NCBI RefSeq assembly: GCF_020179605.1 | Contig: NZ_JAINZO010000001.1 | Span: 62,001-126,000 of the forward strand | DNA from: Geomonas agri | Lineage (GTDB): Bacteria > Desulfobacterota > Desulfuromonadia > Geobacterales > Geobacteraceae | DNA: 64,000 nt | Direction of reading: 5' to 3' | Translations under genes and position numbers: made by a program | Notes under the pieces: model-generated | What the model saw: the letters and a program-made list of their open reading frames with translations, nothing else | Told to the model about the DNA's origin: nothing | Database searches by the model: none | In this document: in pieces, positions 24,586 through 31,623 of the stretch | Layout of the letters: each line of letters opens with the position of its first letter | Position numbering within the stretch: the first letter of the stretch is position 1

Positions 24586-25437
24586 TTACGGCAACCTCAG
24601 GCGCAGTTTGCGCAGCACGCTGTCGTTCACCTGGAGCCGGACCTTGCGGGGGTCGAGCACCGGGATTTTCTGGTAGGTGCCGTTGCGTAACAGGGAGGAG
24701 ACCAGCTCGCCAGTCTGCACCCCGATGTCGTAGGGGTCGACGTCAAGGGAGGCGGCCGCGCCGTCTCTCAAGTACTGGCCGGTGAATGTGACGGTGGGGA
24801 TGCCCTGGGTCATGGAAAACAGCAGCAGCGCCTCCATGTTGACCGTGGTCACCACGGTGCTGTCCGGCAACAGCCACAAGAGGTCCACCTCTCCCTTGAG
24901 CTTCTCCAGTTTCCCCTGCAGGTCGCGCGAGTGGCGCACCGGTTCCATGGTCAGGGTGATGCCATAGTCGGCCGCATCGGCGGCGGCCCGCTTCAGGTAG
25001 AGTCCCGACAGCTTCGGGTCGTAGAGGACCCCGACCCGCTTGGCACCCAGGTGGCTGAACACCTCCAGGTAGCGCTCGGGGGGCGCCACCATGGCGATCC
25101 CGCCGACCCGGTCCGACTGGGGCTTTTGCGACAGCGACAGGGAGAGCATGGATACCACCGGCACCTCCCTGATCTTGCGACAGGCGCTCAGGGCCTGGTC
25201 CCCGACGGCGACCACCAGCCGCGGGCGCTCCTCCCGGACCAGGCGCTGCACGTCCACTTCGGCGTAGTCGGAGAGTACCAGGGGCTGCTCGTTGGTCCTC
25301 GCCGCGGCGCGCAGACCGCGCAGGGCCTCGGAGTAGACCGGGCTGCGGCTCGACTGCAGGATCAGGAGGTCCGAGGCCAGCGCCGGGGCAGCAACGGCAC
25401 AGGCGACCAGCAGTATGCACAGGAACAGGGGGCGCAT
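24586..25437 (-). CDS. ABC-type periplasmic substrate-binding protein
   Basis: A 283-residue exported protein with a signal peptide (cleavage near ALAS, residue 22) and the two-lobe fold of the PF04392 'ABC substrate binding' family: PRLVVAVGDQALSACR, GAKRVGVLYDPKLSG, DLLWLLPDSTVV. Ligand unknown; no permease or ATPase gene is adjacent. Its ATG overlaps the TonB receptor stop (ATGA), so the two are translationally coupled and probably serve the same uptake or sensing path. Confidence 0.8.
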   Translation of the reverse strand: MRPLFLCILLVACAVAAPALASDLLILQSSRSPVYSEALRGLRAAARTNEQPLVLSDYAEVDVQRLVREERPRLVVAVGDQALSACRKIREVPVVSMLSLSLSQKPQSDRVGGIAMVAPPERYLEVFSHLGAKRVGVLYDPKLSGLYLKRAAADAADYGITLTMEPVRHSRDLQGKLEKLKGEVDLLWLLPDSTVVTTVNMEALLLFSMTQGIPTVTFTGQYLRDGAAASLDVDPYDIGVQTGELVSSLLRNGTYQKIPVLDPRKVRLQVNDSVLRKLRLRLP

Positions 25438-27314
25438 CAGAAGCGGAACCTCCCCCCGAATTCGAACCAGCGCGGCGCAGCCTGGCGGAAGTCGTACTCG
25501 TACAGCTTGGTGTCGAAGATGTTGCGCAGCGAGAAGAACAGTTCCGGCGAGTAGTCATGGGACGGCAACAGCTTCTGGTTCACGTGCAGGTCGACAAGGG
25601 TCGCCACCGAGTGCGCGCCGGGGGTATCGAGGTCCCAGTTGGTGTAGTTGCCGGTCAGGACGCAGGTGAGGCCGGCTGCGGCGTTGTTGTAGCTGAGCGA
25701 TCCCTTGGCGGCGTGGCGGGGGCCCCTTTGGTTGCTGTCGAGTTCGGCGCCGGTGTTGCTGTTTCTCGCGTCGGTGAAGGTGTAGGCGCCGGTGAGCGCG
25801 AAGCCGTGCCAGGGGGAGGTGCGCAGCTCCAGGTCGACGCCGTGGCGGTGCTGGCGCTGCTTGCGCATCGTACCGGACTGGTAGTCGTACTCCTGGACGT
25901 TCCAGACGTTGTTGTGAAACAGCATCCCCTTGAGCCAGAGGTAGGGGACTGCGTTGCTCTCCATGCCCCACTGTACCGTGGTTACCTGCTGCAGCTCGTG
26001 CTGCACCTCGCCGTTGGTGGAGCCGAAGAAGCTGATCATGGGGAGGCTGTAGCCGCTTGCGGCATAGCCGCGCATGAGGGTGTTTTCGCCCATACGCATG
26101 GTGGCGCCCAGGGTGGCGCTGACGGCGTCGTCGAGCAGGTTCAGGTGGTCGACGCGCACGCCCGGGAGCAGCGAAAAGCGGCCGAGGGTGAAGGTACCGT
26201 TGGCGTAGGCGGAGTAACGGGTGAGGGTGAGGTCGGCGTCGCTGCCGGGTGCGTGCCGCACCAGTTCCTGCTGGGTCACCCCGATCCGCTCGTACTCCAC
26301 GCCCGCCTTCACCCCCTGGTGGGCGTCACCCAGGTTCAGGGCGGCCGTGTACCCCTGGTGCACTTCGCGCGCCTCGGCGTTGAAGACAACGAGGCTTTGG
26401 GAGAGCAGGCTGCGGCGGTCCACCGTGTCGCGCAGGCCGCCGCGCCCGGTGACCTCGAGGCTGGCGCGTTCGGCCAGCGGCACCTGCAGGGCGAGGTAGC
26501 CGTCCACGTAGTGCGTCGTGCCGGTCTGGGACATGTCGAAGAGCGTCGAGCTCATGGTGCCGGCGTCGGTGTAGCGGGCGTCGACGCCCAAGGTGGCCTT
26601 GGCGCCTCCCAGGAAATCGTAGGTGATCTTGCCGAAGCCGTGGCGGAAGTCGACGTCGTTGCCGGGGACCAGCCCATCGGAGCGGATGGTCCCCCCGGTC
26701 AGGTAATAGCCGAACCGGTCGCTGGTGCCGCTTACCTCGCCCCTCAGGTCGCTGGTCGCCCTCTTGCCGATGGAGGCGGAGGCGAGGCCGGCGGCGCTAC
26801 GGTCAGCCACCGGTGACTTGGTGACGACGTTGATGACGCCGCCCAGCGCCGAGCCCCAGGCAGCCGAGGCCGCACCCTTGACGATCTCGATGCGCTCGAT
26901 CATCTGGACCGGGATCATGCCCAGGTGGGCCAGGTTGTCCGAGGAGACGAAGTTCTGGGGCACCCCGTCGATCTGCACCAGGATCTGCCGGTTGGTCGTG
27001 CCGAGGATGTCGTAGAGCACGATGCCGCCCGGGGTCTGCAACTGGTCTATCTGCACGCCGGGAACGGTCTGCAACACGTCGGCCACGGTGTGGGCGTTCA
27101 GTTGGGCGATTTCATCTGCGGTGACTACGGTGACGTTTTCAGCGATGAGTGATGCGGGGCGGGGCAGGCGCGAGACGCCGACGGGCTGTTCCTCGGAGAG
27201 GCCCAGCGAGCGGGTCACCTCGTCCCCGTCTTCTCCCCTGGCGTTAAAGGGCGCCAGCGGGATCAGGAGCATCAGTGAGGCGAGCAAAGATTTGCGGAGA
27301 AATTTACCTGTCAA
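25437..27314 (-). CDS. TonB-dependent outer-membrane receptor
   Basis: A 625-residue receptor with signal peptide, a plug domain (NVTVVTADEIAQLNAHTVAD, VLQTVPGVQI, IDGVPQN, ERIEIVKGAASAAWG, ALGGVINVVTKSP) and a 22-strand-type barrel ending in GGRFRF with a terminal Phe. The sequence does not reveal the substrate (siderophore, corrinoid or sugar). It heads a two-gene unit with the substrate-binding protein and is divergent from a sensor kinase. Confidence 0.92.
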   Translation of the reverse strand: MTGKFLRKSLLASLMLLIPLAPFNARGEDGDEVTRSLGLSEEQPVGVSRLPRPASLIAENVTVVTADEIAQLNAHTVADVLQTVPGVQIDQLQTPGGIVLYDILGTTNRQILVQIDGVPQNFVSSDNLAHLGMIPVQMIERIEIVKGAASAAWGSALGGVINVVTKSPVADRSAAGLASASIGKRATSDLRGEVSGTSDRFGYYLTGGTIRSDGLVPGNDVDFRHGFGKITYDFLGGAKATLGVDARYTDAGTMSSTLFDMSQTGTTHYVDGYLALQVPLAERASLEVTGRGGLRDTVDRRSLLSQSLVVFNAEAREVHQGYTAALNLGDAHQGVKAGVEYERIGVTQQELVRHAPGSDADLTLTRYSAYANGTFTLGRFSLLPGVRVDHLNLLDDAVSATLGATMRMGENTLMRGYAASGYSLPMISFFGSTNGEVQHELQQVTTVQWGMESNAVPYLWLKGMLFHNNVWNVQEYDYQSGTMRKQRQHRHGVDLELRTSPWHGFALTGAYTFTDARNSNTGAELDSNQRGPRHAAKGSLSYNNAAAGLTCVLTGNYTNWDLDTPGAHSVATLVDLHVNQKLLPSHDYSPELFFSLRNIFDTKLYEYDFRQAAPRWFEFGGRFRF

Positions 27315-27676
27315 ATATCCTGCCCATCAAAAAAAGAACGTTGACAGCTGCATCTTTTTCTGGAAAAACTGACTCAAAAGAGGTGGTATACGTATCAGCT
27401 TGATGTGTTGCTGTCAAAGCAATTTCCATTAATACTATTTGATCTCTCTTTTGTGGTTAGTAGTCTACAGTGTTGTTGCTGGATCCTCACTGCAAGCAAT
27501 AGTTCTACTGTTTCATATCCTTTTGTCACACAAGCATGGCGTCAATTGATCCGGGTTCCGCACCTGCCGCCTGACAAGTGCCCCCTGATCCTACGCCGAC
27601 CGCGACCTCGGTCATTGCACTCCTGTCCGCCACCCGGCCAAGGGCACTGACGGGGCCAGCCCGGAAAGGGCCCTCC
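27315..27676. promoter_or_regulatory. Divergent promoter region, receptor / sensor kinase
   Basis: A 362-base gap that must hold the promoters of the receptor operon (leftward) and the kinase (rightward). I see a TTGACA at 27341 but no convincing partner box. Confidence 0.35.
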
Positions 27677-29620
27677 ATGAACAGGTTGCCGTTGCCCCAG
27701 CGCTTTTGCACCTTCCGCTCCAGCTTTCAATTCAAGCTGCTCCTGCGCTTCACCCTTTTCTCCGCGGTGATAGCCGTGGTCTGCGGCACGCTGTTCGTGC
27801 TGTACCAGATCCACCAGAACAAGAGCCATGCCGAGCAGATGCTGCAACTGCAGGCGCACGCCCTGGCTGACTCGGTGCGCCTGCCGCTGTACGCGGAAAG
27901 CATCGAGCTATTGGAAGCCCATGCCATCGACAGCCTGCGCCTTCCCGAGATCCGGGGCGTCGAAATCGTCAGCGCCCGCGGCAAGGTGCTGGTCCGGCTC
28001 CCCGCCTCCTTTGCCGGCCCGTCCGATGACATGATCCGTCAGCGGGTCGAGGTGCACGGCCATCCCATAGGCCTTGCGCCGGAAGAGGTCCTCGTCGGCG
28101 AGTATGGCACCCCGGGAGACCTGGTGGGGGAGGTGCGGCTGTACCGGGGCACCGACGATCTGTGGCGGGATGGGCGCCGCCTGGCGGCCCTGAGCGTGAT
28201 CCTTGCCACCGTCTGCTGGCTCTTCGTGAGTCTTTCCTGCTACGTGATCCTGAGACGCGTGACCGCCTCCTTCAACAGCTTGATGCGCGGGATGGAAAAG
28301 GTTCACGGCGGGGACTACGTCTCGCGCATCGACATCGTTTCCGACGACGAACCGGGGCGTGCCTCGGCGTCGCTCAACGAGCTGGCCGAGTCGCTCAGGC
28401 AGCGCGAGGAGGAGAACCGCCGTCTGCACGCGGAACTCATGGCCGCCATGGACTTCGAGATCGCCTCCAAGGAGCAGCTGGTCTCCGTCAACCTGGACCT
28501 GGAAAAGGAGATCGAGCAGAGGACCCAGGCGCGCCAGGAGCTGAAGAACCTGGTGCAGCAGCTCCCCTTGGGCATCGTCTGGTCCGATGAAAAGGGCGAC
28601 ATCGAGTACCTCAACTCGTTCATGCTGGACACCTTCGGCTACGGTGCCGAAGAGGCGCCCGATCTGGACGCGCTGTTTACCCTCATCTGCCCCGATCCGG
28701 ACTACCGCGCCGCGGTCCTCGAAAAGCGGCGCGGCTCCATCGCGGCGTGGGAACAGGGAAACCTGGTCACCTTCTACGAGGTGCGCGCCCAGTGCCGGGA
28801 CGGGTCGCCGCGCCACCTCAACTGCAGCAGCCAGCGTTCCGGCACCAGGATCGTCGACCTCATGATCGACATGACCGAGCGCGAACTCTTGCAGCAGCAA
28901 ATCGTCCGCAACCAGAAGCTGGAATCGATCGGCGTCTTGGCCGGCGGCATCGCCCACAACTTCAACAACGCCCTGACCGGGGTACTCGGCTACATCTCCT
29001 TCGCCAAGAAGTTCCTGGACCCGGGCCACGGCGCCCACGAACTGCTGCTGCAGGCGGAAAAGGCGACCAAGCGCGCCGCCGGTTTTGCCAACCAGCTCCT
29101 GTGCTTCGCCAATGGGGGCGCCCCAATGAGAAAGGGGGTGCCGGTCGCGGCGCTGGTTGAGGAGGCGGTGCAGTCCTCCACCATGGGGACCCGGGTTCGT
29201 GCCGCCATCGAGCTCGCCGATGATCTCCCGCCGGTCTTCGTGGACGACGGGCAGATGCGCCAGGCCTTCAACTGCATCTGCATCAACGCGGTGCAGGCCA
29301 TGCCGGAGGGGGGGGAGCTCATCGTGCGGGGGAGACTGGTCTCCAGCGACCGGGAGCGGCTGCCGGCTCCCTTGCACGGCTGTTACGTGGAGCTTTCCTT
29401 CCGGGACCAGGGGTGTGGCATCCGCGACGAGCACAAGTCCAGCATCTTCACCCCGTATTTCACCACCAAGGCGGAACTGGGAACCGGGCTGGGACTCGCC
29501 ACCGTGCACTCCATCGTCACCAGGCATGGCGGCATGGTCACCTTCGACTCGCAGTGGGGGAAGGGGACCACCTTCACCCTCTACCTCCCGATCTTCTGCA
29601 TGGAATCGTCCGGGTCCTAG
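27677..29620 (+). CDS. Membrane sensor histidine kinase (HAMP-PAS-HisKA-HATPase)
   Basis: A 647-residue kinase: membrane helix at about 20-43, periplasmic stretch, second helix at about 172-195, HAMP domain, coiled coil, PAS domain around 300-410, dimerisation block with phospho-acceptor His427 in GGIAHNFNNAL, and ATPase motifs (FRDQGCGI, TGLGLATVHSIV, GKGTTFTLYLP). The ATG at 27677 has GGAAAGGG six bases upstream. No response regulator gene is adjacent. Divergent from the TonB receptor, which it may control. Confidence 0.9.
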   Translation: MNRLPLPQRFCTFRSSFQFKLLLRFTLFSAVIAVVCGTLFVLYQIHQNKSHAEQMLQLQAHALADSVRLPLYAESIELLEAHAIDSLRLPEIRGVEIVSARGKVLVRLPASFAGPSDDMIRQRVEVHGHPIGLAPEEVLVGEYGTPGDLVGEVRLYRGTDDLWRDGRRLAALSVILATVCWLFVSLSCYVILRRVTASFNSLMRGMEKVHGGDYVSRIDIVSDDEPGRASASLNELAESLRQREEENRRLHAELMAAMDFEIASKEQLVSVNLDLEKEIEQRTQARQELKNLVQQLPLGIVWSDEKGDIEYLNSFMLDTFGYGAEEAPDLDALFTLICPDPDYRAAVLEKRRGSIAAWEQGNLVTFYEVRAQCRDGSPRHLNCSSQRSGTRIVDLMIDMTERELLQQQIVRNQKLESIGVLAGGIAHNFNNALTGVLGYISFAKKFLDPGHGAHELLLQAEKATKRAAGFANQLLCFANGGAPMRKGVPVAALVEEAVQSSTMGTRVRAAIELADDLPPVFVDDGQMRQAFNCICINAVQAMPEGGELIVRGRLVSSDRERLPAPLHGCYVELSFRDQGCGIRDEHKSSIFTPYFTTKAELGTGLGLATVHSIVTRHGGMVTFDSQWGKGTTFTLYLPIFCMESSGS

Positions 29621-29686: not shown

Positions 29687-29717
29687 AGGACGGCCCGGAC
29701 CGTCCTTCTTTTTTTCT
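29687..29717 (+). terminator. Terminator between sensor kinase and hgcA
   Basis: AGGACGG pairs with CCGTCCT and is followed by TTCTTTTTTTC. It separates the kinase transcript from hgcAB. Confidence 0.8.
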
Positions 29718-29757: not shown

Positions 29758-29792
29758 GAGAAGGTGTCTGAGACAACGGGCAAGAGGTGACT

Positions 29793-30938
29793 ATGGAGAT
29801 CAGGCAGTTCAAGAAAATCGCGGTCAAGCAGAACGCATGCAACAGCGCGCCAGGTGTAGCGGGGGACACCGCGACTCCTCCCTGCTGAGGTCCCCCCACC
29901 TCCGCGGGCGGCGGAGAAATCAGCGAAAAGGTTCCCGGTTTCCTACAGTGGGTCCCGGTGCTGTCCGGACGGGCGCCTCGGATCGCTACCGAACTCACGT
30001 TCAGGGACCACGCTGGCGCCTGCCTCGCGCGCTGGGGGATCAACCGGATGACCTTCATGGTCCCTCCCGGCCTCTACGCCATCGGTGTGCCCGACAGCGA
30101 GGCGCCGGTCGTGGTGACCGCGAACTACAAGATGAGCTACGACCTCGTGCGCCAGACGCTCGCGGGGAGGACCGTCTGGCTCCTGGTCCTGGAGACCTAC
30201 GGTATCAACGTCTGGTGCGCGGCGGGGAAGGGGACCTTCGGCACCGGCGAACTGGTGCGCCGCATCGAAGCGACCGGGCTTGCCGGCGTGGTGAGCCACC
30301 GGCGCCTCATCCTCCCCATCCTGGGCGCGGCCGGTGTCTCGGCGCACCGGGTGAAGCAAAAAAGCGGCTTCGAGGTCGCCTACGCCACGGTGCGCGCCGC
30401 CGATCTTCCCGCCTACCTCGACCGCGGCGAGGCGACGCCCGCCATGCGCGAACTGCGCTTCAACTGGTACGATCGCCTGGTACTGATCCCGGTGGAGCTG
30501 GTCCTGGCCGCCAGGCCGGTGCTCCCGGCGACGGCGCTGGTCTACCTCGCGGCGCGACTTTTGTGGGGTGCCGATGTCGCGGCCGCCGCGGCGCTGGCCC
30601 TTTTGGGCGCGGTCTTCACCGGTATCGCGATCGGGCCGCTCTTGCTGCCGGTGCTGCCGGGACGGAGCTTCGCGGTCAAGGGCGCCTGCGCCGGAGCCGT
30701 CTACTCTGCGCTTCTGTACGCCTGGGCTGGAGGCGCGGGGTGGGTTTGGGCGGCGACGCTGGCCTGTTTCCTGGCACTGCCGGCGGTCTCCTCCTTCTAC
30801 ACCCTCAATTTCACTGGCTGCACCACCTACACGTCCAAGTCGGGGGTGAAAAAGGAGATGCGCCTGGGACTCCCGGTCATGGGGGGAGCCGTGGTCGCCG
30901 CGCTGTTCATCGTCATAGCCGGTCGCCTTCTGGCCTGA
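29793..30938 (+). CDS. hgcA: Mercury-methylation corrinoid protein HgcA, probable selenoprotein (UGA at 29886)
   Basis: HgcA transfers a methyl group from its corrinoid to Hg(II), making methylmercury. The diagnostic cap-helix motif GINVWCAAGKGTFGT is present, followed by the corrinoid-domain block and about five membrane helices in the C-terminal half. The frame conserved in HgcA (VPGFLQWVPVLSG, LTFRDHAGACLARWGI) extends upstream of any good start until an in-frame TGA at 29886-29888. The same frame opens at ATG 29793 with an excellent ribosome site (AAGAGGTGA). If UGA is read as selenocysteine the protein has 381 residues with Cys31-Sec32 (TPPC-U-GPP). A SECIS-like hairpin follows. Otherwise only an N-truncated HgcA from a GTG near 29958, which lacks a clear ribosome site, would be made. 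Confidence 0.9.
29886..29916 (+). promoter_or_regulatory. UGA codon and SECIS-like hairpin in hgcA
   Basis: After the TGA (29886-29888), CTCCGC (29900-29905) pairs perfectly with GCGGAG (29911-29916) around the loop GGGCG. The loop begins 17 bases after the UGA. Bacterial SECIS elements lie just downstream of the UGA, with a short stem and G at the start of a small loop, and this fits those rules. It needs selA, selB and selC elsewhere in the genome. Confidence 0.65.
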
Positions 30939-30947
30939 GGGGAAGGT

Positions 30948-31241
30948 ATGAAAGGATTCAGATATCTGGAAGGGGTGGCCACGCTGGAGCTGGACGGGGC
31001 GCTGTGCATCGGCTGCGGCAGGTGTGTCGAGGTATGTCCGCACCAGGTCTTTTGCATGGAGGGGAAACGGGCCGTCATAGTGGACCGTGACGCCTGCATG
31101 GAGTGCGGCGCCTGTGCGCTCAACTGCCCCGCCGCCGCGCTCAAAGTGGACGCCGGGGTGGGGTGCGCCAGCGGCATGATCCACGAATGGCTCAGGGAGA
31201 AGAAGCTTCCCGGCCTCAACGGCGGGGGATGTTGCGGGTAG
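30948..31241 (+). CDS. hgcB: Mercury-methylation ferredoxin HgcB
   Basis: A 97-residue ferredoxin with two 4Fe-4S motifs, CIGCGRCVEVCP and CMECGACALNCP, and the paired cysteines at the very C-terminus (GGGCCG) that are typical of HgcB; a further Cys lies at VGCASG. It is thought to supply electrons that return the HgcA corrinoid to Co(I) and possibly to hand over Hg(II). It begins 9 bases after hgcA, with GGGGAAGG as ribosome site, so hgcAB form one operon. Confidence 0.95.
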   Translation: MKGFRYLEGVATLELDGALCIGCGRCVEVCPHQVFCMEGKRAVIVDRDACMECGACALNCPAAALKVDAGVGCASGMIHEWLREKKLPGLNGGGCCG

Positions 31242-31323
31242 TCTCCACGCCGGCTTGACTATCAAACCTGTTCTGTTAAAACCTCCTAATGTGCGAAGGG
31301 GGCTACCTAAAAGGAGGCAGAAC

Positions 31324-31623
31324 ATGGAAGAGAAGCAGATGGTCAGGATCAACTCCTGCAACGTTACGCAGTGCGCCTACAATAAACATAATTCCTGCCA
31401 CACGCTCGCCATCACGGTGGGGGGACCCGGCGACCTCTGCCCCGAGTGCGATACCTTCATGCAGGGGAGCCAGAGGGGGGGGATCATCGACGTCCAGGGC
31501 GGCATCGGCGCCTGCAAGGTGGAGAATTGCAGCTACAACCAGTCCCTTGAGTGCACCGCTCCCGCCGTCGACGTCGGCATGCACGAGTCGCATCCCGACT
31601 GCTTCACCTACAAGCCGAAATAG
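31324..31623 (+). CDS. DUF1540 cysteine-rich protein
   Basis: A 99-residue protein with two copies of the DUF1540 pattern: VTQCAYNKHNSCHTLAITV, ending CPECDTF, and KVENCSYNQSLECTAPAVDV, ending HPDCFTY. The ordered Cys residues suggest metal binding, and no biochemical role is known. AAAGGAGG just upstream sets the start at 31324. Its position behind hgcAB in a run of small Cys-rich genes may be coincidental. Confidence 0.85.
   Translation: MEEKQMVRINSCNVTQCAYNKHNSCHTLAITVGGPGDLCPECDTFMQGSQRGGIIDVQGGIGACKVENCSYNQSLECTAPAVDVGMHESHPDCFTYKPK

Follow-up and report, generated by a model that had tools for sequence, protein, structure and literature searches.

Is the UGA codon that lies within the hgcA gene of Geomonas agri the end of a short peptide, or is it read as selenocysteine (Sec) in a predicted mercury-methylating protein? 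HgcAB makes methylmercury, the form that accumulates in food webs, and selenium binds mercury very strongly. The field has yet to settle how Hg(II) gets to the corrinoid. Having analyzed a stretch of 64,000 nucleotides (the window) from a genome of 4,684,271 bases, we consider it highly probable, at roughly 0.94 on the evidence of sequence comparison, that Sec is inserted at this UGA by SelB and tRNA-Sec, and that a hairpin at positions 29900-29916 directs the insertion. This reading follows from a conserved UGA, a hairpin that tracks it, homologues with Cys, and complete Sec machinery in the genome, and every check named in the original prediction of selenocysteine that was run supported that interpretation.

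The core claim is already known, as a prediction, since the accessible part of the review PMC13188914 lists HgcA (NF040863, motif CU, WP_250697417.1) as a selenoprotein, citing for it references 61 and 63, the latter being Haft and Gwadz 2023, and lists HgcB (NF040864, motif GVGU) as a selenoprotein as well. The listed HgcA and that of the window share a profile family, a Cys-Sec motif and a single Sec per protein; in this part of the review, the HgcA entry comes without an organism range, a SECIS analysis or counts of Cys/Sec exchange, and genes in which Sec is not preceded by Cys fall outside the listed CU motif. With no claim to priority, we add to that partial view of the listing the frequency of the UGA in the sampled phylum, the presence of unrelated hairpin sequences at one spot, statistics relating UGA, Cys and hairpin, and the retention of Sec where its Cys neighbor has disappeared or is found on the opposite side; a disordered arm bearing the pair, predicted by modeling, is also added. 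HgcA does not appear in the available part of a 2006 list of Geobacter selenoproteins (PMC1794560), and a word search in the main text of both PMC2398784 and PMC5029168 did not find HgcA described as a selenoprotein. Among titles and abstract openings, a range that leaves most subscription journals outside, no experimental report of selenium in HgcA was found.

The hgcA gene and its neighbors

The hgcA frame (forward strand, 29793-30938, 381 residues counting the Sec of codon 32) begins at an ATG at 29793, preceded by AAGAGGTG, and direct reading confirmed the prediction that it is broken only by the TGA at 29886-29888 and otherwise open to the stop TGA at 30936-30938. The codon immediately before the UGA is TGC (Cys31), giving the predicted context TPPC-U-GPP, and the ribosome site that had been proposed before the ATG corresponds to a likely ribosome-binding site, AGAGGTG, at 29784-29790 on the same strand. 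A profile search identified the protein as HgcA (NCBIfam NF040863, 429 bits against a cut-off of 275, E = 1e-128), with the match beginning only at residue 62 and the cap-helix motif NVWCAAGK located at residues 139-146, and the gene is a clear member of the HgcA family for which mercury methylation is predicted. From residue 225 onwards the structural model shows five long helices, a putative C-terminal transmembrane domain. Among the 80 best loci taken from at least 575 in named genomes, the nearest HgcA genes are those of Geomonas strains, with Citrifermentans bremense also present.

If the UGA is taken as a stop, the frame listed instead is a UGA-free frame of 326 codons on the forward strand (29958-30938), which starts with the GTG at codon 56. 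Gene callers that read UGA as a stop would thus lose at least the first 32 hgcA codons, or 55 if the GTG at 29958 is taken.

Directly downstream of hgcA, hgcB (forward strand, 30948-31241) encodes a two-cluster ferredoxin of 97 residues (NCBIfam NF040864, E = 1.9e-36) that ends in Cys-Cys-Gly. Codon 73 of this gene is TGC, i.e., the Cys of a GVGC motif, which rules out Sec in the window HgcB in the manner of the GVGU variant. No UGA was seen at the GVGC-type site in a survey of the 198 distinct loci described below, where Cys was present at all 120 readable sites (for 73 further loci the stretch retrieved contained no hgcB-like frame, and five had another or an unreadable frame). A small protein with two DUF1540 matches is encoded 3′ of hgcB (forward strand, 31303-31623). 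Upstream of hgcA lies a gene for a PAS-type sensor histidine kinase (forward strand, 27578-29620) with a HAMP match under its cut-off, and the terminator-like hairpin between the two genes (29687-29706) is no better than those given by shuffles. Upstream of the kinase gene, on the opposite strand, are genes encoding a TonB-receptor plug-domain protein (25437-27314) and, adjoining it, an ABC substrate-binding protein (24586-25437, also on the reverse strand).

The UGA site across relatives

We identified an HgcA match in 40 of the 48 genomes of the window's own family. In all 37 family genomes in which the site was read, the window's own included, UGA is present at the same codon, exactly 107 codons before the NVWC motif; the three remaining matches (G002, G032 and G043) are fragments and stand outside these readings. 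A scan of the phylum covered 395 genomes drawn from a larger group, 295 of which gave some match at E ≤ 0.001; many of these matches are weak, and many of the weak ones resemble relatives of the corrinoid protein CFeSP. The phylum genes used are full-length and high-scoring, and were chosen by eye among the matches listed, with short, partial or weak matches left out (e.g., G183, G066, G078, G290, G325, G400 and G088). The named genomes, with at least 575 loci, contributed the best 80. Loci that lack the motif, six in number (L055, L060, L074, L082, L113 and L216), were left out, and removal of duplicates from 213 motif hits gave 198 distinct HgcA genes.

UGA is present at the site in 105 of these 198 genes, and it lies 105-111 codons from the NVWC motif in every one of them, at exactly 107 codons in 93. 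Cys-Cys occurs at the site, 104-112 codons from the motif, in a further 42 genes, as found by a plain CC pattern that makes the assignment approximate in distant genes. This agrees with the original expectation of a Cys at position 32 in homologues. The other 51 genes comprise 15 with a Cys pair elsewhere, i.e., outside the 104-112 codons, which were placed in neither group for the hairpin comparison; 28 with no recognized pair, some of them truncated; and 8 with a spurious UGA. The pair is therefore not universal, with the reservation that truncated genes are included among the 28 of 198 that lack it. The eight apparent UGA hits were dropped by eye (L048, L096, L131, L138, L193, L206, L208 and L217), and all eight look like sequence 5′ of the gene start: seven have a different spacing to the motif (97-104 or 117-128 codons), and L096, at 104 codons, has a non-gene context. 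HgcA proteins with Cys at the site may poorly represent the group with Sec; that of Pseudodesulfovibrio mercurii ND132 presumably has Cys-Cys at the Sec position.

Two loci of the survey are unusual in their genomic setting. Genome G331, with a contamination estimate of 6%, contains two HgcA genes (L042 on contig C5 and L112 on contig C2), and the site reads UGA in one of them (CLUGP) but not in the other. A contig labeled Nitrospirae GWC2_56_14 contains a Geobacter-like HgcA gene (L169) with PCUGPP, 58% identical to the query, which may reflect either transfer or an error of binning.

On a tree of the HgcA proteins, UGA and Cys have exchanged at least 10 times among 148 genes, compared to 31-43 changes in 100 label shuffles, and at least 17 changes are required between UGA and everything else; this is a quick, single-protein FastTree tree, built without the site itself, on which gain is indistinguishable from loss. 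The tree counts used a range of 100-112 codons, which assigned 104 genes to UGA, 44 to Cys and 49 to other states, out of 197. The closest UGA/Cys pairs on the tree are L161 with L168 and L154 with L019.

The hairpin downstream of the UGA

The SECIS-like hairpin (forward strand, 29900-29916), read in the sequence and found as a helix in 18 relatives, consists of a perfect 6-bp stem (29900-29905 with 29911-29916) and a GGGCG loop (29906-29910), and its stem begins 12 bases past the last base of the UGA; stem, loop and spacing are all exactly where the original prediction had placed them. We scored hairpins on the basis of a contiguous stem of at least 4 pairs, a loop of 3-7 nt, a UGA-to-loop distance of 13-24 nt and a G at the first or second position of the loop. 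A hairpin scoring at least 12 is present in 104 of the 105 UGA-type genes, the single exception being L121, vs 5 of the 42 Cys-type genes. The background at this score is 226 of the 1978 TGA triplets of the window (both strands, with the hgcA UGA included) and, among TGA codons that terminate hgcA genes, 11 of 78. The window hairpin scores 17, a value reached or exceeded at 41 of the 1978 triplets (2.1%). The presence of the hairpin thus tracks that of the UGA, in support of the earlier proposal that it is a SECIS element.

The hairpin beats synonymous shuffles at p < 0.05 in 85 of the 105 UGA-type genes vs none of the 42 Cys-type genes, and for the window hairpin alone p = 0.075 against synonymous-codon shuffles; because the score was adopted after a folding-energy test had given little and hairpins had been seen, these p-values do not belong to a test fixed in advance. 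Better controls than the p-values are provided by the Cys homologues and by the tree-based pairs, and the strength of the hairpin case comes from comparison within the family. For example, the hairpin is found on the UGA side in a mean of 7.5 of the eight UGA/Cys pairs that are independent and supported, with conflict in 0 and no difference in 0.5, and in the set of genes used for the tree it is present in 103 UGA-type genes and absent from 1, and present in 6 Cys-type genes and absent from 38.

Folding energy was tried over segments of several lengths. The folding of a 23-nt piece around the window hairpin was bettered by only 2 of 200 shuffles. For the window segments of 43 or 48 nt, the minimum free energy was not unusual compared to shuffles. 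As a SECIS test, the folding energy of the whole segment was rejected (UGA-type mean z of -0.37 against synonymous shuffles; p = 0.95 for the window); the UGA-type and Cys-type groups do differ in this measure (Mann-Whitney p = 0.005), yet it is a poor test.

The stem sequences are unrelated between lineages, yet they occur at the same place after the UGA. In the 18 close sequences, 99.1% of stem cells pair, and the stem covariation score was reached by none of 500 shuffles and lowered by every slide of one strand against the other. Two of the six pairs have changed on both sides, a number equalled by 85 of 500 shuffles of these 18 sequences, and the need to encode Ser-Ala-Gly-Gly-Gly holds part of the stem fixed.

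Decoding of the UGA and the role of the Cys-Sec pair

The search for selA, selB, selC and selD that the original prediction had called for found all four in the genome above their cut-offs (SelA, 602.6 bits; SelB, 395.9 bits; tRNA-Sec, 74.9 bits; SelD, 359.2 bits). The SelD gene of this genome (G000:C2:65544-66458, L034) itself contains an in-frame UGA, in the context AAGUAAK, followed by a SECIS-like hairpin of the same geometry with a score of 20. Like hgcA, it therefore has a UGA and then a GC-rich hairpin at similar spacing with a G in the loop; unlike HgcA, SelD is an enzyme of Sec synthesis (selenophosphate synthetase), and the two proteins are different. Presence of tRNA-Sec was rejected as a discriminator, as it was found in 38 of 40 UGA-type genomes and in 36 of 40 other genomes (sampled from 54) without separating them; being nearly as common where HgcA lacks Sec, it is necessary but not telling. 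The two UGA-type exceptions both contain SelB, with no tRNA-Sec over the cut-off in G164 and a match of only 47 bits, at the cut-off, in G344. The four other genomes without tRNA-Sec are G412 and G278, which contain SelB, and G329 and G423, which also have no SelB over the cut-off; UGA is absent from the site in both of the latter, whose Cys pairs lie outside the codon range taken for the site. In another Geobacteraceae genome (G030, contig C38), the tRNA-Sec gene (120021-120114) lies approximately 700 bases from hgcA (120793-121890, L026), on the opposite strand and directed towards it.

Were the UGA a true stop, a peptide of 31 residues would be made and a working HgcA would start from the GTG at 29958; that frame is open and contains the corrinoid motif, and the profile match, which starts at residue 62, would be contained in it. 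We regard this as very improbable, since protein conservation extends to both sides of the UGA. Among relatives, compared in three groups, dN/dS is 0.05-0.27 over the last 12 codons before the UGA and 0.20-0.51 from the UGA to the GTG, consistent with the earlier remark that the frame looks coding on both sides, and over the 30 codons before the UGA it is 0.32-0.57, above the 0.16-0.19 of the core. C31 and C/U32 are at least 90% conserved among 40 sequences, and the region upstream, the absence of which from homologues had been named as grounds for doubt, is thus conserved. A start at the GTG would also remove a conserved segment and the larger part of the first predicted strand (residues 50-56), at the end of which codon 56 lies, and would leave the exchange of UGA and Cys with a tracking hairpin unexplained. 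A sequencing error or a decaying pseudogene, for which nothing speaks beyond the stop codon itself, has a negligible probability: the same UGA in all 37 family genomes read argues that it is not an error, UGA is present in named isolates such as those of Geomonas and Citrifermentans, and elsewhere the frame is unbroken and shows purifying selection.

With the UGA at 29886 decoded as Sec by SelB and tRNA-Sec under the direction of the hairpin, HgcA would have, in front of its corrinoid-binding domain, a disordered N-terminal arm that bears the pair Cys31-Sec32. A structure prediction from 40 sequences (mean pLDDT 86.5) gave a pLDDT below 50 for residues 1-37 and predicted most of the remainder well, which suggests that the pair is probably on a flexible arm of approximately 37 residues. 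This pair may take up Hg(II) and pass it to the corrinoid site or to Cys73 of HgcB, a tentative proposal, to which we give somewhat less than even odds, based on likeness to the proposed role of the C-terminal Cys pair of HgcB, which, according to the available part of PMC7305189, may transfer Hg2+, methylmercury or both from a flexible tail.

A redox or structural role for the inserted Sec, e.g., in keeping thiols of the corrinoid site or the HgcB tail reduced, is at least as likely as the role of Hg(II) ligand, with a chance of about one in two. Sec is commonly found in redox-active sites, and a Cys directly beside it in 99 of the 105 UGA-type genes (preceding Sec in 95 and following it in 4, namely L068, L072, L088 and L098) would permit a selenenyl-sulfide. 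Against this role, the arm is predicted to be disordered, and 3 of the 105 genes (L061, L067 and L126) have no Cys within four residues of Sec, such that an obligate selenenyl-sulfide with a near neighbor is not general. These same counts indicate that Sec is retained more steadily than its Cys partner, a pattern more in keeping with a role as ligand than with an obligate neighbor pair.

Given the strong binding of mercury by selenium, the presence of Sec in HgcA in many Geobacter-type bacteria suggests that selenium and methylmercury are connected in a way that can be tested. The broader proposition, that mercury methylation is selenium-dependent in many Desulfobacterota, with the flexible Sec arm as an Hg(II)-capturing ligand, Sec as the residue that selection retains even where its Cys neighbor is absent or displaced, and at least 10 Sec/Cys switches among lineages on the HgcA tree, we consider rather unlikely; if true, selenium supply would limit or tune methylmercury formation in nature.

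The HgcA of P. mercurii ND132, as described in the available parts of PMC11588087 and PMC7305189, resembles that of the window in having corrinoid and transmembrane domains (the latter putative in the window protein) and HgcB as a partner. It differs in that the protein studied was made in E. coli from cloned genes, and the discussion in these parts concerns Cys93 of HgcA and Cys73, 94 and 95 of HgcB and not an N-terminal pair. The only solved relatives detected by sequence (E ≤ 0.01) are large (gamma) subunits of CFeSP (2h9a, 2ycl, 4c1n, 4djd and 9fzy), which have the corrinoid domain in common with HgcA; their matches begin at HgcA residue 88 or 89, and the Cys-Sec arm therefore lies outside them.
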